From positions 1 through 64,000 of the forward strand of contig JAJQEU010000008.1 in NCBI GenBank assembly GCA_021201535.1: DNA of 64,000 bases, in the 5' to 3' direction. The notes beneath the pieces were generated by a model. It saw nothing but the letters and a program-made list of their open reading frames with translations. It was not told the DNA's origin and ran no database searches. The stretch comes from Clostridiales bacterium. Its GTDB lineage: Bacteria > Bacillota > Clostridia > Lachnospirales > Lachnospiraceae. The position numbers and the translations under genes were made by a program. Shown piece by piece: positions 8,070-13,518 of this stretch. Within the stretch, counting starts at the first letter, position 1. Every line of letters starts with the position of its first letter.

Positions 8070-10525
8070 GACATGAGTTGCTGGCTCCTGCGGGTTCCCC
8101 GGAGATCTGCAGAGCGGTGATCGCCGCGGGGGCGGATGCGGTGTATCTGGGCGGTGAGAAATACGGCGCCCGGGCTTTTGCGCAGAATTTTTCCGAAGAG
8201 GAGATTCTGTCTGCGCTGGATCATGCTCATCTGCACGGACGGAAAATTTTCCTCACGGTGAATACGCTTTTGAAAAACAGGGAGATGGGTAAGGAACTGT
8301 TCGATTACCTGAATCCCTTTTATGAGCATGGATTGGACGCCATTATCGTACAGGATTTTGGCGTATTTCAATTTGTGCGGACGTATTTTCCGGAACTTCC
8401 GGTGCATGTGAGTACGCAGATGTCGGTTTCAAATGTGTATGGCGCGTCTCTCCTGCAGAAATGCGGGGCTGCGCGCATTGTCACGGCGCGGGAACTTTCG
8501 CTCGGGGAGATTCGCCGGATCCGTGAGCAGACCGGAGTCGAGATCGAGAGCTTCATACACGGGGCGCTCTGCTATTGCTACTCGGGTCAGTGTCTGATGA
8601 GCAGCCTGATCGGAGGCAGAAGCGGCAACCGCGGCCGCTGTGCCCAGCCCTGCCGTCTGCCTTATCAGGTGGAGGATGAGGAGGGCGCCTGTCTCCATAA
8701 AAAAGAGTCTTATCCGCTGAGCATGAAGGATCTGTGCGCGCTGGACCGGATACCGCAGCTGTGTGAGGCCGGCATTTATTCGTTTAAGATCGAGGGACGC
8801 ATGAAGTCGCTGGAATATGCCGCGGGAGTCACGCAGGTGTATCGGAAATATCTTGATCTGTATGAGGCTTCGCCGGATCGGTTTTGCGTAAATGATGAGG
8901 ATTACCGGTATCTGCTCGCGCTGGGGAACCGCAATGGCTTCACGCGCGGATATTATGAGATGCGAAACGGGCGGTCGATGGTGACATTGACCGACTCCTC
9001 CCATGCCAGTGTTGATGCGAAGGGGGTATACCGCCCCGTGACTCCGGAGAAAATCCCGATTGCCGGGAGGCTCACGGTGCGGCAGGGGGATCCGCTTTCG
9101 CTGACGGTTCGGACGGTTCCGGGTGCGCGATGTGGGTCGATGACAGAAACTGCCGTATCGAGGGAGACGACGGTGTCGGGTGAGATCGTATCCGCGGCTC
9201 AGAAGCGGCCGCTTTCTCATGCAGAGGTGTATGAAAGAATCTGCAAAACCGGCGAAACGCCCTTTGTTTTTATATCTCTGGAAGTGAATCTGGCGGAAAA
9301 CTGTTTTGTGCCGGTCAGGCAGCTGAATGAATTGAGAAGAAACGCTCTTTGCCAATTAGAGCAGAGTATGTTACACTCTCACAGGAGAACGCTGTCAGAA
9401 CAATACGGACCGAAAGCGCTGAAAGAACAGAAAACAGCATCCTGCGACGATGTCAGAGACGGCGGAAATCCTGGCAGGAGCAGCGGAGAGCCTGGCAGAA
9501 GCAGCGAACATCCTGGAAGGAGCAGCGAACATCCTGGCAGAAGCCGCGGAGATTCTGACAGGATAAACAGACAGAACGGCAGGGATCAATCATATGTTCT
9601 GAATGTTCAGGTTTCATCCCATGAACAGATGGAGGAAGCTCTCCGGTATCCTTTTGTGGACATGATTTCACTGGATTTTTGTTTTCTTCCCGAAAAAGGG
9701 GATGCGTTTGATCGGAATGATGCCTGCGGAGCCGGAAAGAAACTCCGTGAAACATGGTTCAGGAGTCTGGAACAGGCCAGGCGTCGGATCGTTTCTGCCG
9801 GAAAGCAGGCTGCGTTTTGTTTCCCTTATATTTTCCGGGAGAATACGTCCGTGTTCTTTGAAAAGCGTGAGATGCAGGAGCTGATTTGCCGTTTCGATAC
9901 TGTCTGGGTGCGCAGCTATGACAGCCTTGGCTTTTGCCTGCAGGCGCTGCGCCTGCGGCCGGAACAGATTTCTCTTGATGCACCGCTGTATATCTGTTCA
10001 GAGGAGGCGTATGCGGCGTTTTCCGATATTGTTCCGGATAAGGATGATACTGATTTTCGGAGCCGGTTCGGCTTTCGGCAGTATACGGCGTCCCCGGAGT
10101 TAAATAAAAGGGAGCTCGCGCACATGCCGAATGACAGGGCTCAGTTTTGCCTGTACGGCTCTGTGCCGGTGATGATTTCCGCGCAGTGCGTGTACAAAAA
10201 TTACAGACAGTGCATGAAAAACGGGGATTCCGGGGCGACGCTCTGTTTGTCGGATCGATACAATAAAAAGTTTCCGGTTTTCAGGGACTGTATGAACTGT
10301 TATAATCTGATATACAACAGTGTGCCGACATATCTGTTCCATCAGGCGGAGGCGGTGAAAAAATCCGGATTTGCGTCATATCGGATTTCTTTTGCCGCGG
10401 AGGACAGGGAGCAGGTCTGTAAAATTCTGGAGGATTACAGGCTGTCTTTCCCGGAAGGAAAACCGGTCCTGCCGCCCGACAGCGGCGCTTTTACGAACGG
10501 ACATTTTCAGCGCGGCGTGGAGTGA
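8066..10525 (+). CDS. U32 family peptidase (RNA hydroxylation-type), two-domain form with a low-complexity linker
   Basis: This 819-residue protein begins MRHELLAPAGSPE and contains the U32 signature ESFIHGALCYCYSGQCLMSS at about 165-185, with conserved Cys residues there and in CAQPCR. Characterised relatives (TrhP, RlhA) introduce 5-hydroxy groups into tRNA uridine or 23S rRNA cytidine; which applies here cannot be told. A second, DUF3656-like half follows (YVLNVQVSSHEQMEEAL onward). Between the halves lies a Gly/Arg/Ser repeat linker at about 466-500. It overlaps zapA by 4 nt. The length exceeds the usual ~650-700 residues, mostly through the linker. Confidence 0.85.
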   Translation: MRHELLAPAGSPEICRAVIAAGADAVYLGGEKYGARAFAQNFSEEEILSALDHAHLHGRKIFLTVNTLLKNREMGKELFDYLNPFYEHGLDAIIVQDFGVFQFVRTYFPELPVHVSTQMSVSNVYGASLLQKCGAARIVTARELSLGEIRRIREQTGVEIESFIHGALCYCYSGQCLMSSLIGGRSGNRGRCAQPCRLPYQVEDEEGACLHKKESYPLSMKDLCALDRIPQLCEAGIYSFKIEGRMKSLEYAAGVTQVYRKYLDLYEASPDRFCVNDEDYRYLLALGNRNGFTRGYYEMRNGRSMVTLTDSSHASVDAKGVYRPVTPEKIPIAGRLTVRQGDPLSLTVRTVPGARCGSMTETAVSRETTVSGEIVSAAQKRPLSHAEVYERICKTGETPFVFISLEVNLAENCFVPVRQLNELRRNALCQLEQSMLHSHRRTLSEQYGPKALKEQKTASCDDVRDGGNPGRSSGEPGRSSEHPGRSSEHPGRSRGDSDRINRQNGRDQSYVLNVQVSSHEQMEEALRYPFVDMISLDFCFLPEKGDAFDRNDACGAGKKLRETWFRSLEQARRRIVSAGKQAAFCFPYIFRENTSVFFEKREMQELICRFDTVWVRSYDSLGFCLQALRLRPEQISLDAPLYICSEEAYAAFSDIVPDKDDTDFRSRFGFRQYTASPELNKRELAHMPNDRAQFCLYGSVPVMISAQCVYKNYRQCMKNGDSGATLCLSDRYNKKFPVFRDCMNCYNLIYNSVPTYLFHQAEAVKKSGFASYRISFAAEDREQVCKILEDYRLSFPEGKPVLPPDSGAFTNGHFQRGVE
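9460..9560 (+). repeat. 24-bp tandem repeats inside the U32 peptidase gene
   Basis: Four imperfect 24-bp units built on CCTGGCAGAAGCAGCG encode the octapeptide PGRSS(G/E)(E/H)(P) several times in a row. The repeat is in frame, so it only lengthens the linker between the two domains. Confidence 0.75.
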
Positions 10526-10604
10526 TGTGCGGATGGAGCCGTGAATGGTTACAGCAGATTCTTACGATGTATTGGGAGCCGCTGTCAGTTGACAAGGAGA
10601 GTTT

Positions 10605-12122
10605 ATGCTGCATTTGATTACGGAATTATCAAAATATGTGATGATTTTTCTGTTTATGATCTATACATACTACAGCTTTGCCATCCTGGGCGTAAAAAAG
10701 GAAGCCCGGCAGCTTAGGATGTATAAGAGCCAGACATCCTGTATGATGATGATTCATCTGGACGCTTTCCTTGTCCTGTTTGCATCCCAGATGGAGATTC
10801 GATACCTGATCTTCTATGCGGCGCAGGTGGCTTTTGTCCTGTTTTTGTTTCTGATCTACCGGGTGATCTACAGAAAAGCGGCGCGCATGGTCGTCAATCA
10901 TATGTGCATGCTGATGCTGATCGGGTTTATCATCCTGGCGAGGCTCGATTTTTCGAGCGCGGTGAAGCAGTTTGAGATCGCGGTGATCGCTTCGGTCGTC
11001 ACGATTTTTATCCCGCAGCTGGTGCGAAAGCTGAAGGTGCTGCGGAAATTCACCTGGGTTTACTGCGCGGCCGGTATTCTTGCGCTGGGGGTCGTGCTGG
11101 TGCTCGGACAGATGTCGGGCGGCGCTTACCTGTCCTTCACGATCGCGGGTATTACGTTTCAGCCCTCCGAGTTCGTCAAGATCATCTTTGTGTTTTATGT
11201 GGCGTGTATGCTGTATCAGTCGACGGACTTCCGCCAGATCTGCATCACGACGGTCGCCGCTGCCGTGCACGTGCTGATACTGGTTGTCTCGACCGATCTG
11301 GGCGCGGCGCTGATTTTTTTCATTACTTATGTGATTATGCTCTATGCGGCGACGAAAAAACCGCTGTATCTCCTGGGCGGCCTCGGCGTCGGCTGTCTGG
11401 CGGCGCTGGCGGCGACCAGGATTTTCTCTCATGTCCGCGTCCGGGTGGAAGCCTGGCTGGATCCGTTTGCCAATATCAGCGGCAGCGGCTGGCAGGTGGC
11501 GCAGTCCCTGTTTGCCATCGGGACCGGCGGCTGGTTCGGGCTCGGCCTGTACCAGGGCATGCCGGAAAAGATTCCGGTCGGCACCTCGGATTTTGTGTTC
11601 GCCGCCATTGTGGAGGAGATGGGCGGCGCGTTCGGTATCTGTATCATACTGGTATGCCTGAGCTGCTTTCTGATGTTTTTGAATATTGCCATGCAGATCC
11701 GCGATCCGTTTTACAGACTGATCGCGCTGGGGCTCGGAAGCGTGTACGGGATTCAGGTTTTTTTAAATATCGGAGGCGTGATCAAATGCATTCCGTCGAC
11801 GGGACTTACCCTGCCGCTGGTAAGCTACGGCGGGAGTTCGATTTTATGTACCATTTTGATGTTTGCGATTATTCAGGGTCTGTATATTTTCAGGCAGGAT
11901 GAAGGAGAGTCAGATGCGCAAAATCAGTTCGAACAGAAAAAACAGAGAAGAGTGGGACGGCAAATGGACGAGGGACGGGATCGATCTGATCGATCTGGAC
12001 AGTCAGACAGACAGAGAAACGGAGCCGGGACGTCAAAAAAGAAGAGAAACGGCAGCGGACGCGGAACCGGCAAATCCGGATCACGTTACGAACAGGACGA
12101 CGAGATCGAGGAAATCTGGTAG
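10605..12122 (+). CDS. SEDS family peptidoglycan glycosyltransferase (FtsW/RodA/SpoVE-like)
   Basis: A polytopic membrane protein of 505 residues. SEDS proteins polymerise lipid II glycan strands and work with a class B penicillin-binding protein, which is exactly what follows. Visible SEDS features are STDLGAALIFFITY, the glycine-rich GSGWQVAQSLFAIGTGGWFGLGL and the C-terminal STGLTLPLVSYGGSS. The membrane part ends near residue 430; the last ~70 residues are a charged, low-complexity cytoplasmic tail (KKKRNGSGRGTG) that reads across the start of the next gene. A strong GGAGAG site precedes ATG 10605. Whether it serves elongation, division or sporulation cannot be decided from sequence. Confidence 0.93.
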   Translation: MLHLITELSKYVMIFLFMIYTYYSFAILGVKKEARQLRMYKSQTSCMMMIHLDAFLVLFASQMEIRYLIFYAAQVAFVLFLFLIYRVIYRKAARMVVNHMCMLMLIGFIILARLDFSSAVKQFEIAVIASVVTIFIPQLVRKLKVLRKFTWVYCAAGILALGVVLVLGQMSGGAYLSFTIAGITFQPSEFVKIIFVFYVACMLYQSTDFRQICITTVAAAVHVLILVVSTDLGAALIFFITYVIMLYAATKKPLYLLGGLGVGCLAALAATRIFSHVRVRVEAWLDPFANISGSGWQVAQSLFAIGTGGWFGLGLYQGMPEKIPVGTSDFVFAAIVEEMGGAFGICIILVCLSCFLMFLNIAMQIRDPFYRLIALGLGSVYGIQVFLNIGGVIKCIPSTGLTLPLVSYGGSSILCTILMFAIIQGLYIFRQDEGESDAQNQFEQKKQRRVGRQMDEGRDRSDRSGQSDRQRNGAGTSKKKRNGSGRGTGKSGSRYEQDDEIEEIW

Positions 12123-13518
12123 GAACCGCGAATTCCTGATCATCACGTACGTGTTTGTCGGACTTTTCTGCCTTCTGATCGCTTATCTGGCGTATTTTCA
12201 GGCATTCAAAAGCGAGAGTACGATCAACAGCTCGTACAATGCCCGGCTGGATCTCTATGCGGAGCGGGTGATCCGGGGAGATATTCTCTCTGCGGACGGA
12301 CAGGTGCTTGCCACCACGAATGTAGCGGAGGACGGGACGGAGACGAGATATTATCCGTACGGACGTATGTTTGCCCATTCCGTCGGATATTTCAACAACG
12401 GAAAATCCGGCATTGAGTCCACCTGTAATTTTAACCTGCTGCGCTCACACGCATTTTTCATCAAACAGATCATCAACGACCTGAAGGATGAGAAGAGTAT
12501 GGGCGACAGCGTGGTGACCACCCTGGATTATGATGTGCAGGCGGCGGCTTACAATGCGCTCGGCAGCAATGACGGCGCGGTGGTCGTCCTGGAAGCCTCC
12601 ACGGGGAAGGTGCTCGCCATGGTTTCCAAACCGGATTTTGATCCGAATACCCTGGCGGAGAACTGGGATTCCATTGTGAGCGATGAATCCAGCTCCGTGC
12701 TCTTAAACCGCGTCACCTCCGGTTCATATCCGCCGGGCTCTGTGTTTAAGATTTTTACCACGCTGGAATATATTCATGAGAATTCCGATTACAGCGCCTA
12801 TACCTTTGACTGTGAGGGGGAGATTACTGTGGACGGCGAGGAGATCCACTGTTACCACAACAGTGTCCATGGCGCGCAGGATCTGATCACCTCCTTTGCG
12901 AACTCCTGCAATACCTCTTACGCGTCGATCGGCCTGACGCTGAATATCAGTCAGTTTACGTCGCTGCTGGAGGATATGCTGTTTAACACCTCCCTGCCGG
13001 GCACGCTGTCCGGCGTGAAGAGCAGCTTTTCTCTGTCCTCCGATGCCGGCACGGGGAAAATCATGCAGACTGCCATCGGGCAGGGCGACACGACGGTATC
13101 TCCGCTTCATATGGCGATGATCGCGGCCGCTGTGAATCAGGACGGCGTGGTCTATACGCCGTATGTGGTCGATCACACGGAGAACGAGAACGGTGTGACG
13201 GTAAAACAATACAGCTCTTCGGCATATGGCTCTATCATGACGGAGTCGGACGCGGCCATCCTGCAGGAGTTTATGTCCGCGGTGGTTCAGTACGGAACCG
13301 GCTCCGCCCTGAGCGGGCAGAGCTACACGGCGGCCGGGAAGACCGGTTCGGCCGAATATGACAGTGCCGGAAACAGCCACGGATGGTTTGTCGGTTACGC
13401 TTCCAAAGACGGTTATGCTGATATTGCCATTGCGGTGATCGTGGAGGACGGCGGCAGCGGCAGCCAGTCGGCGGTTCCCGTGGCGAAGGCGGTTTTCGAC
13501 ACATACTTTAATCAGTAA
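11914..13518 (+). CDS. Penicillin-binding protein (class B transpeptidase)
   Basis: This 534-residue transpeptidase cross-links peptidoglycan and is the likely partner of the SEDS protein before it. Residues 1-70 are a charged cytoplasmic segment, followed by one membrane anchor (FLIITYVFVGLFCLLIAYLAY, about 72-92). The catalytic motifs are PPGSVFK (SxxK), SFANSCN (SxN) and AAGKTGS (KTG). The large dimerisation domain is short, as in the PbpA group that pairs with RodA. The start is at ATG 11914 with AAGGAGAG just upstream. Its first 209 nt overlap the SEDS gene in another frame, so both tails are encoded by the same DNA. Confidence 0.93.
   Translation: MRKISSNRKNREEWDGKWTRDGIDLIDLDSQTDRETEPGRQKRRETAADAEPANPDHVTNRTTRSRKSGRNREFLIITYVFVGLFCLLIAYLAYFQAFKSESTINSSYNARLDLYAERVIRGDILSADGQVLATTNVAEDGTETRYYPYGRMFAHSVGYFNNGKSGIESTCNFNLLRSHAFFIKQIINDLKDEKSMGDSVVTTLDYDVQAAAYNALGSNDGAVVVLEASTGKVLAMVSKPDFDPNTLAENWDSIVSDESSSVLLNRVTSGSYPPGSVFKIFTTLEYIHENSDYSAYTFDCEGEITVDGEEIHCYHNSVHGAQDLITSFANSCNTSYASIGLTLNISQFTSLLEDMLFNTSLPGTLSGVKSSFSLSSDAGTGKIMQTAIGQGDTTVSPLHMAMIAAAVNQDGVVYTPYVVDHTENENGVTVKQYSSSAYGSIMTESDAAILQEFMSAVVQYGTGSALSGQSYTAAGKTGSAEYDSAGNSHGWFVGYASKDGYADIAIAVIVEDGGSGSQSAVPVAKAVFDTYFNQ

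Follow-up and report, generated by a model that had tools for sequence, protein, structure and literature searches.

In a Lachnospiraceae genome, from a group of gut bacteria, the last 209 nt of a gene for a SEDS glycosyltransferase are also, one base out of phase, the beginning of a gene for a class B PBP, and this long overlap is conserved in every readable locus of the genus. The shared DNA makes up most of both cytoplasmic tails, which are predicted to be largely disordered, and holds a conserved element of one or the other protein near each of its ends. The interpretation that we favour, with moderate confidence, is that the overlap is a conserved dual-coding linker carrying one peptide hook for each partner. 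Its length and conservation would surprise a specialist; its translation in both frames and its function are proposed from sequence.

The gene pair and its shared DNA

The main features of the pair within the window (the whole stretch of DNA analysed, 64,000 nt) are the following.

10605-12122, + strand: SEDS glycosyltransferase gene (FtsW/RodA/SpoVE family), 505 aa; PF01098, 1.4e-61
11914-13518, + strand: PBP gene, class B, PbpA type, 534 aa; PF00905, 9.9e-50, and PF21922 (PBP_dimer_2), 9.5e-11
11914-12122, + strand: dual-coding overlap, 209 nt, with the PBP in frame +1 relative to SEDS; covers 94% of the tail in SEDS and 97% in the PBP
11902-11907, + strand: Shine-Dalgarno (SD) sequence of the PBP gene, AAGGAG, 6 nt ahead of ATG 11914; lies in SEDS codons E-G-E

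The SEDS protein matched PF01098 with 208.9 bits, above the cut-off of 26.4, and the PBP matched PF00905 with 169.9 bits (cut-off 22.1) and PF21922 with 42.3 bits (cut-off 27); the latter protein, having both the transpeptidase and the PbpA dimerisation domain, was assigned to the PbpA type of class B. As to the SEDS subfamily (FtsW, RodA or SpoVE), none of six NCBIfam matches exceeded its cut-off, the best being TIGR02614 at 192.9 of 337.5. The genome contains three SEDS genes, counting the one at 10605-12122, whose closest named match (98%) was in a Lachnospiraceae MAG (L034). The SEDS tail is identical in Eubacterium ramulus strain 21 (L044) and in the congeneric locus L020. The + strand neighbours are ruvB, zapA, a U32 peptidase gene, SEDS, PBP and NUDIX, with a YtfJ-like gene farther along. 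An SD sequence, AAGGAG, precedes the SEDS gene at 10594-10599. The U32 gene, upstream of SEDS, shows a promoter-like site at 10278-10306 with TG ahead of the second hexamer; promoter and terminator scans gave counts near the shuffle means.

An initial reading of the window from its letters and open reading frames (hereafter the sequence-only reading) had placed a coding overlap in two frames at 11914-12122, and this proved exact. No stop codon occurs in the SEDS frame before 12120. Start codons in the PBP frame lie at 11863 (TTG), 11899 (ATG), 11914 (ATG) and next at 12151 (GTG), there being no ATG, GTG or TTG between the last two. Since GTG 12151 is residue 80 of the PBP and falls within its predicted membrane helix (residues 70-104), a wrongly chosen PBP start cannot explain the overlap. 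A word-list scan detected no SD sequence for the in-frame ATG 11899, and the PBP is presumed to be translated from 11914. Given the PBP amino acids and the codon usage of the PBP gene, the probability of an open SEDS frame at this locus is 0.014. A 162-aa open frame lies opposite the overlap on the minus strand (11890-12378) and is probably a by-product of the overlap's composition.

The same reading had described both tails as charged, low in complexity and adjacent to the membrane, a description that was mostly borne out. In AlphaFold models, built on shallow alignments (30 and 28 rows), pLDDT is below 50 in residues 458-505 of SEDS and in residues 1-54 and 56-68 of the PBP, as it also is in some core regions of SEDS, 292-329 among them. 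Where the description fits less well is in the overlap residues of SEDS before 456, modelled as a low-confidence prolongation of the last helix, which, with middling confidence, extends beyond the membrane (410-455). Over 18 loci, the shared DNA accounts for 92-96% of the tail in SEDS and 83-98% in the PBP, so that the two tails are largely one segment read twice. Their lengths co-vary (60-112 and 59-111 aa; r 0.98), a correlation largely built in by the overlap; in L016 the two tails are 10 residues apart in length.

Distribution in the genus and the family

The sample of the genus comprised 20 genomes. The PBP was present in 19 of them (G011 gave no match) and the locus was readable in 18, G014 having a run of N and G003 being read from a partial contig (L234). 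Seven of the 253 loci collected overall were left out for want of one of the two genes (L001, L023, L060, L092, L135, L244 and L248). With an SD-supported start, the genes overlap by 170-326 nt in all 18 readable congeneric loci. With the last possible ATG, GTG or TTG ahead of the PBP core taken instead, 13 of the 18 loci retain an overlap of 170 nt or more; the other five (L016, L017, L020, L021 and L022) have later start codons, none with an SD sequence. An SD of 6-7 nt precedes the PBP start in all 19 loci (the 18 congeneric ones and L114, from another genus), and the start codon is ATG throughout except for GTG in L019 and L234. Inspection of relatives, as the sequence-only reading had proposed, thus found both frames kept, with the SEDS frame open and the PBP SD and start retained in 18 of 18 congeneric loci. 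That reading had also named a SEDS stop near position 11910 in relatives as the sign of a recent stop loss. Such a stop is absent from the genus, where the shortest SEDS tail runs 183 nt beyond the core (n = 18), and is encountered in distant genera, the SEDS gene stopping within 30 nt of the core end, that is, almost without a tail, in 18 of 118 family loci. The long SEDS tail thus characterises certain lineages and does not reflect a stop lost in this genome; at the same time, the loci nearly devoid of it indicate that the putative SEDS hook is not universal.

One survey attributed overlaps of this kind to loss of a stop codon, an incorrect start or the like. In the accessible text of the survey by Palleja et al. 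2008 (PMC2478687), which took length agreement with orthologues as its criterion, all 715 co-directional overlaps longer than 60 bp were so or similarly explained and none was held to be real. Here, with 18 congeneric loci and L114, from the neighbouring genus, sharing the overlap and with both ends forced in most, a recent SEDS stop loss or a wrong PBP start is so improbable that it can practically be set aside. Within the genus both genes have homologues of similar extent and the overlap is conserved (18 of 20 genomes), and the pair passes the orthologue-length test; a comparison over the whole family might flag it, as tail lengths vary widely there.

Two observations concern individual congeners. 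The 326-nt overlap of L018 and L047 has repeat-like runs in both frames, which suggests growth through in-frame duplication. An apparent SEDS-PBP fusion in L014/L041 was rejected, the frames being joined by a 10-N run in the contig.

A search of the family found the PBP at E 1e-70 or better in at least 179 of 200 genomes. Of 140 regions fetched, 123 were family loci outside the genus, 16 came from other families of the order and one from a congener (G003). The 123 family loci were taken among the matches listed and so favour better-scoring PBPs; 122 were analysed, L135 being cut at a contig end. Family loci L024-L033 and L048-L113 were inspected as well but enter these tallies only where a genome was fetched twice. 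An overlap of some length was seen in 110 of the 118 analysed family loci with two separate genes when the start was chosen by SD and in 64 when the latest possible start was used. It reached 20, 60, 100 and 150 nt in 96, 57, 29 and 12 loci, respectively, by the first rule and in 53, 30, 8 and 2 by the second. Some starts are uncertain: in the Dorea/Mordavella group, a 164-nt overlap depends on a TTG that could be a by-product of conserved SEDS codons. For this reason, counts with ATG and SD only were also made; the most downstream ATG with an SD of 4 or more is present in 60 of the 118 loci, with 43, 23, 9 and 3 attaining the same four lengths. The claim that so long a same-strand overlap is rare stands for its length, whereas an overlap of some extent in this gene pair is frequent in the family. 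The phase is identical in all 105 SD-chosen family overlaps longer than 8 nt, in line with the phase bias described for long overlaps in the available part of Sabath et al. 2008 (PMC2542354). Of the 16 loci from other families of the order, 14 were readable: 13 have an overlap shorter than 45 nt or none, and L238 has one of 182 nt.

In four loci from as many genera (L193, L210, L211 and L212), SEDS and PBP form natural fusions, single ORFs of 896-974 aa free of N. On a FastTree tree of 140 SEDS cores, with 48 of its 137 inner branches open for weak support, fusions account for at least 3 changes and the 60-nt overlap class for at least 26.

Selection on the shared DNA and its ends

The SEDS frame is open across the overlap in 18 of 18 congeneric loci, against 0.34 expected from the PBP amino acids under gene codon usage. 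The probability of an open frame per locus was 0.000-0.126 with gene usage, 0.001-0.052 with overlap usage and 0.000-0.157 with codons permuted. As the loci are related, these are not independent trials, and the product over ten chosen divergent representatives (about 1e-21) is a rough guide only. The third frame contains 1-5 stops per locus and is open in none of the 18. The converse test is weak, the PBP frame having a probability of 0.13-0.94 of being open given the SEDS amino acids, so that openness is often expected. In the family sample, the SEDS frame is open, by definition of an overlap, in the 57 overlaps of at least 60 nt, as compared with 6.8 expected, and the third frame in 7 of the 57.

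Amino acid sequences between the two ends appear far less constrained. In the core genes flanking the overlap, five pairs of loci vary mainly at the third codon position (0.17-0.49 vs 0.01-0.13 at the others), whereas in the overlap of the same pairs all three positions vary alike (0.11-0.46). Non-synonymous counts in 12 pairs, which are not independent, were in either frame close to the expectation from the other frame alone, pointing to most of the overlap body as free linker. They were lower in five of six comparisons among the three L020-L022 pairs (z -2.1 to -2.8; 0.0 in the sixth) and slightly low for L008-L012 (z -1.0 and -1.8). Purifying selection on amino acids over the overlap body thus appears weak from these counts. 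Signals of selection reside in the open SEDS frame, the start, the stop and the motifs, and are weak in the body of the overlap. The elements near the ends are the following.

11980-12000, + strand: motif of the PBP N-terminal tail, I-D-L-I-D-L-D, residues 23-29; strict pattern in 14 of 18 congeneric tails
12102-12122, + strand: SEDS C-terminal tip E-I-E-E-I-W plus stop; in all 18 congeneric loci and L114 the last residue is Trp, preceded by I, V or L
12115-12122, + strand: doubly constrained octet; PBP Ser-Gly TCT GGT is SEDS Trp-stop TGG TAG

The PBP encodes its Ser-Gly as TCT GGT in 19 of 19 loci even though these codons have shares of only 0-0.22 (Ser) and 0.03-0.41 (Gly) in the PBP; they are kept because the same letters spell the SEDS Trp and stop. 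Reciprocally, in all 19 loci the SEDS I, L or V codon preceding Trp has C as its last letter because the PBP Ser requires that C. The PBP motif, defined as [VILF][ED]x[ILMFV][DN][LFA][DNA], sits 21-82 residues ahead of the membrane helix. Its frequency in congeneric tails compares with a shuffle mean of 0.00 (maximum 1), a figure that flatters the motif since the pattern was framed after seeing the tails; it is degenerate in L012, L013 and L016 and absent from L017. Of 118 other genera, 6 have the motif (mean in shuffles 0.06, maximum 1, flattered in the same way), and of 64 loci among L048-L113 none does. In five of those six genera it lies outside any overlap, which marks it as an element of the PBP frame.

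We considered, and do not claim, a shared motif that shifts from one tail to the other: in the family sample the loose pattern was weak (4 of 118 in SEDS tails against 0.62 in shuffles, 8 of 118 in PBP tails against 1.4) and, like the strict one, framed post hoc. Other tips were noted in passing. In a separate clade (L136, L155, L175 and L228) the SEDS tail ends in Q-T-E-[KN]-S-L-[NH]-W, another terminal Trp tip. In L053, L066, L071, L073, L084, L087 and L113, where the overlap is 44 nt, the tip reads H-G-T-K-[VI]-x-[DEN]-F-D, and in six of these seven loci the letters of the PBP SD, AAGGAGG, supply a K-G-G to the tail of SEDS.

Could the overlap be a passive by-product, a T-poor charged stretch that happens to be open in two frames and serves no function beyond giving each protein a tail? 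The DNA is indeed only 8-13% T, its body is near neutral in amino acids and its length has changed often in the family, if the weakly supported tree is followed (see above). A by-product would leave unexplained why the SEDS frame is open beyond expectation in all 18 loci while the third is closed in every one, why the uncommon TCT GGT persists in all 19 and why motifs occur in both frames. We consider such an origin unlikely.

Coupling, precedents and possible role

The sequence-only reading had suggested that the overlap could couple the amounts of the two partners. Coupling would mean that translation of SEDS controls initiation on the PBP and that the overlap sets the SEDS:PBP ratio. In favour of this, the partners are in tandem, the PBP start lies inside the upstream gene, where passing ribosomes should affect it, and close or overlapping gene pairs are often coupled, according to the accessible portion of a review (PMC12548453). 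The same portion has coupling fall with overlap length and vanish at 25 nt, and here the overlap measures 209 nt, a configuration in which termination-reinitiation, with its need for a start near the upstream stop, is unlikely. No hairpin over the PBP SD was found in 16 loci: the SD is unpaired with a probability of 0.45-0.92 and local folding (z -0.9 to 1.4) is no stronger than in shuffled sequences. Several loci do show partial pairing of the start codon (unpaired probability 0.07-0.73), which would favour coupling. Against coupling, the PBP also has a strong SD of its own in 19 of 19 loci, and across the genus the overlap ranges in length from 170 to 326 nt. The reported absence of coupling at 25 nt and the failure to find an SD hairpin in these 16 loci lead us to read the overlap as a shared linker rather than a regulator of amounts; the suggestion of coupling is not supported, and we regard it as rather improbable. 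Programmed +1 frameshifting, which would yield some SEDS-PBP fusion protein, has in its favour that the PBP frame is +1 and that in-frame fusions in four genera indicate tolerance of the joined form. It would make the conserved SD and start codon of the PBP unnecessary, and we hold it to be very improbable.

In the conserved dual-coding linker that we favour, the T-poor DNA would be read as most of the SEDS C-terminal tail and, one base on, as most of the PBP N-terminal tail. The PBP most likely starts de novo at the SD inside the SEDS gene, to judge from the conservation of SD and start codon. Both tails are, by prediction, largely disordered linkers whose bodies change fast, the SEDS tail presenting a conserved acidic-hydrophobic-Trp peptide at its C-terminus and the PBP tail a conserved hydrophobic-Glu-x-hydrophobic-Asp-Leu-Asp peptide ahead of its membrane helix. 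The PBP start occupies the 5' end of the shared DNA and is followed by the motif; the 3' end holds the tip and stop of SEDS. The needed elements being at opposite ends, shortening either gene out of the overlap would lose that gene's own element; neither could be shortened, and the overlap would persist, its length changing in steps of three. We propose that the peptides hook cytoplasmic partners of the machinery for wall synthesis, with the linkers serving as tethers. More speculatively, the overlap might be a genetic ruler: two membrane-anchored tethers coded by a single piece of DNA would be forced to near-equal length, so that SEDS polymerase and PBP crosslinker meet one cytoplasmic scaffold on arms of matching reach. 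We find this idea doubtful. If it were true, almost every insertion or loss would alter both arms together, and the geometry would be kept while the sequence drifts freely.

The partners are of the same kinds as in the RodA-PBP2 and FtsW-FtsI pairs; the difference is that here the tails share DNA, the natural fusions being found in four other genera. That cytoplasmic tails take part in the mycobacterial FtsW-FtsZ-PBP3 complex is reportedly the case. A title cited by PMC9939409 names a mycobacterial trimeric complex of FtsZ, FtsW and PBP3 and, as far as a title goes, shows that SEDS-PBP pairs are able to contact proteins of cell division. The accessible part of published work already uses the term "RodA-PBP2 fusion". 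Among the matches listed, with subscription papers outside the coverage, no title reported this overlap or natural SEDS-PBP fusions.

As an overlap, the pair resembles holD-rimI, a conserved co-directional overlap of two real genes and the longest real one identifiable in the accessible text of Palleja et al. 2008 (PMC2478687), from which it differs in length (less than 60 bp for holD-rimI vs 209 nt). It also resembles phase-1 overlapping genes in being on the same strand and in +1 phase, the phase that is commoner among co-directional overlaps of at least 7 nt in what is available of Sabath et al. 2008 (PMC2542354) and Fonseca et al. 2013 (PMC3887535); in those same portions, selection against very long overlaps is assumed or inferred. 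The SEDS/PBP overlap differs from them in extending over 170-326 nt genus-wide, with a conserved element near each end. Its length is several times beyond what is usually accepted as real in bacteria. With its ends forced by sequence in most congeners, its genus-wide conservation and the family-wide trend, the pair is a strong candidate counter-example to a survey that, as far as its accessible text goes, calls every overlap longer than 60 bp in its co-directional set an artefact (PMC2478687). A gene caller with a penalty on long overlaps might cut one of the two proteins short. The pair is a natural setting in which to follow the evolution of two likely partner proteins from a single DNA segment, and its two short motifs, one per protein, may recruit partners to the cell-wall synthase.
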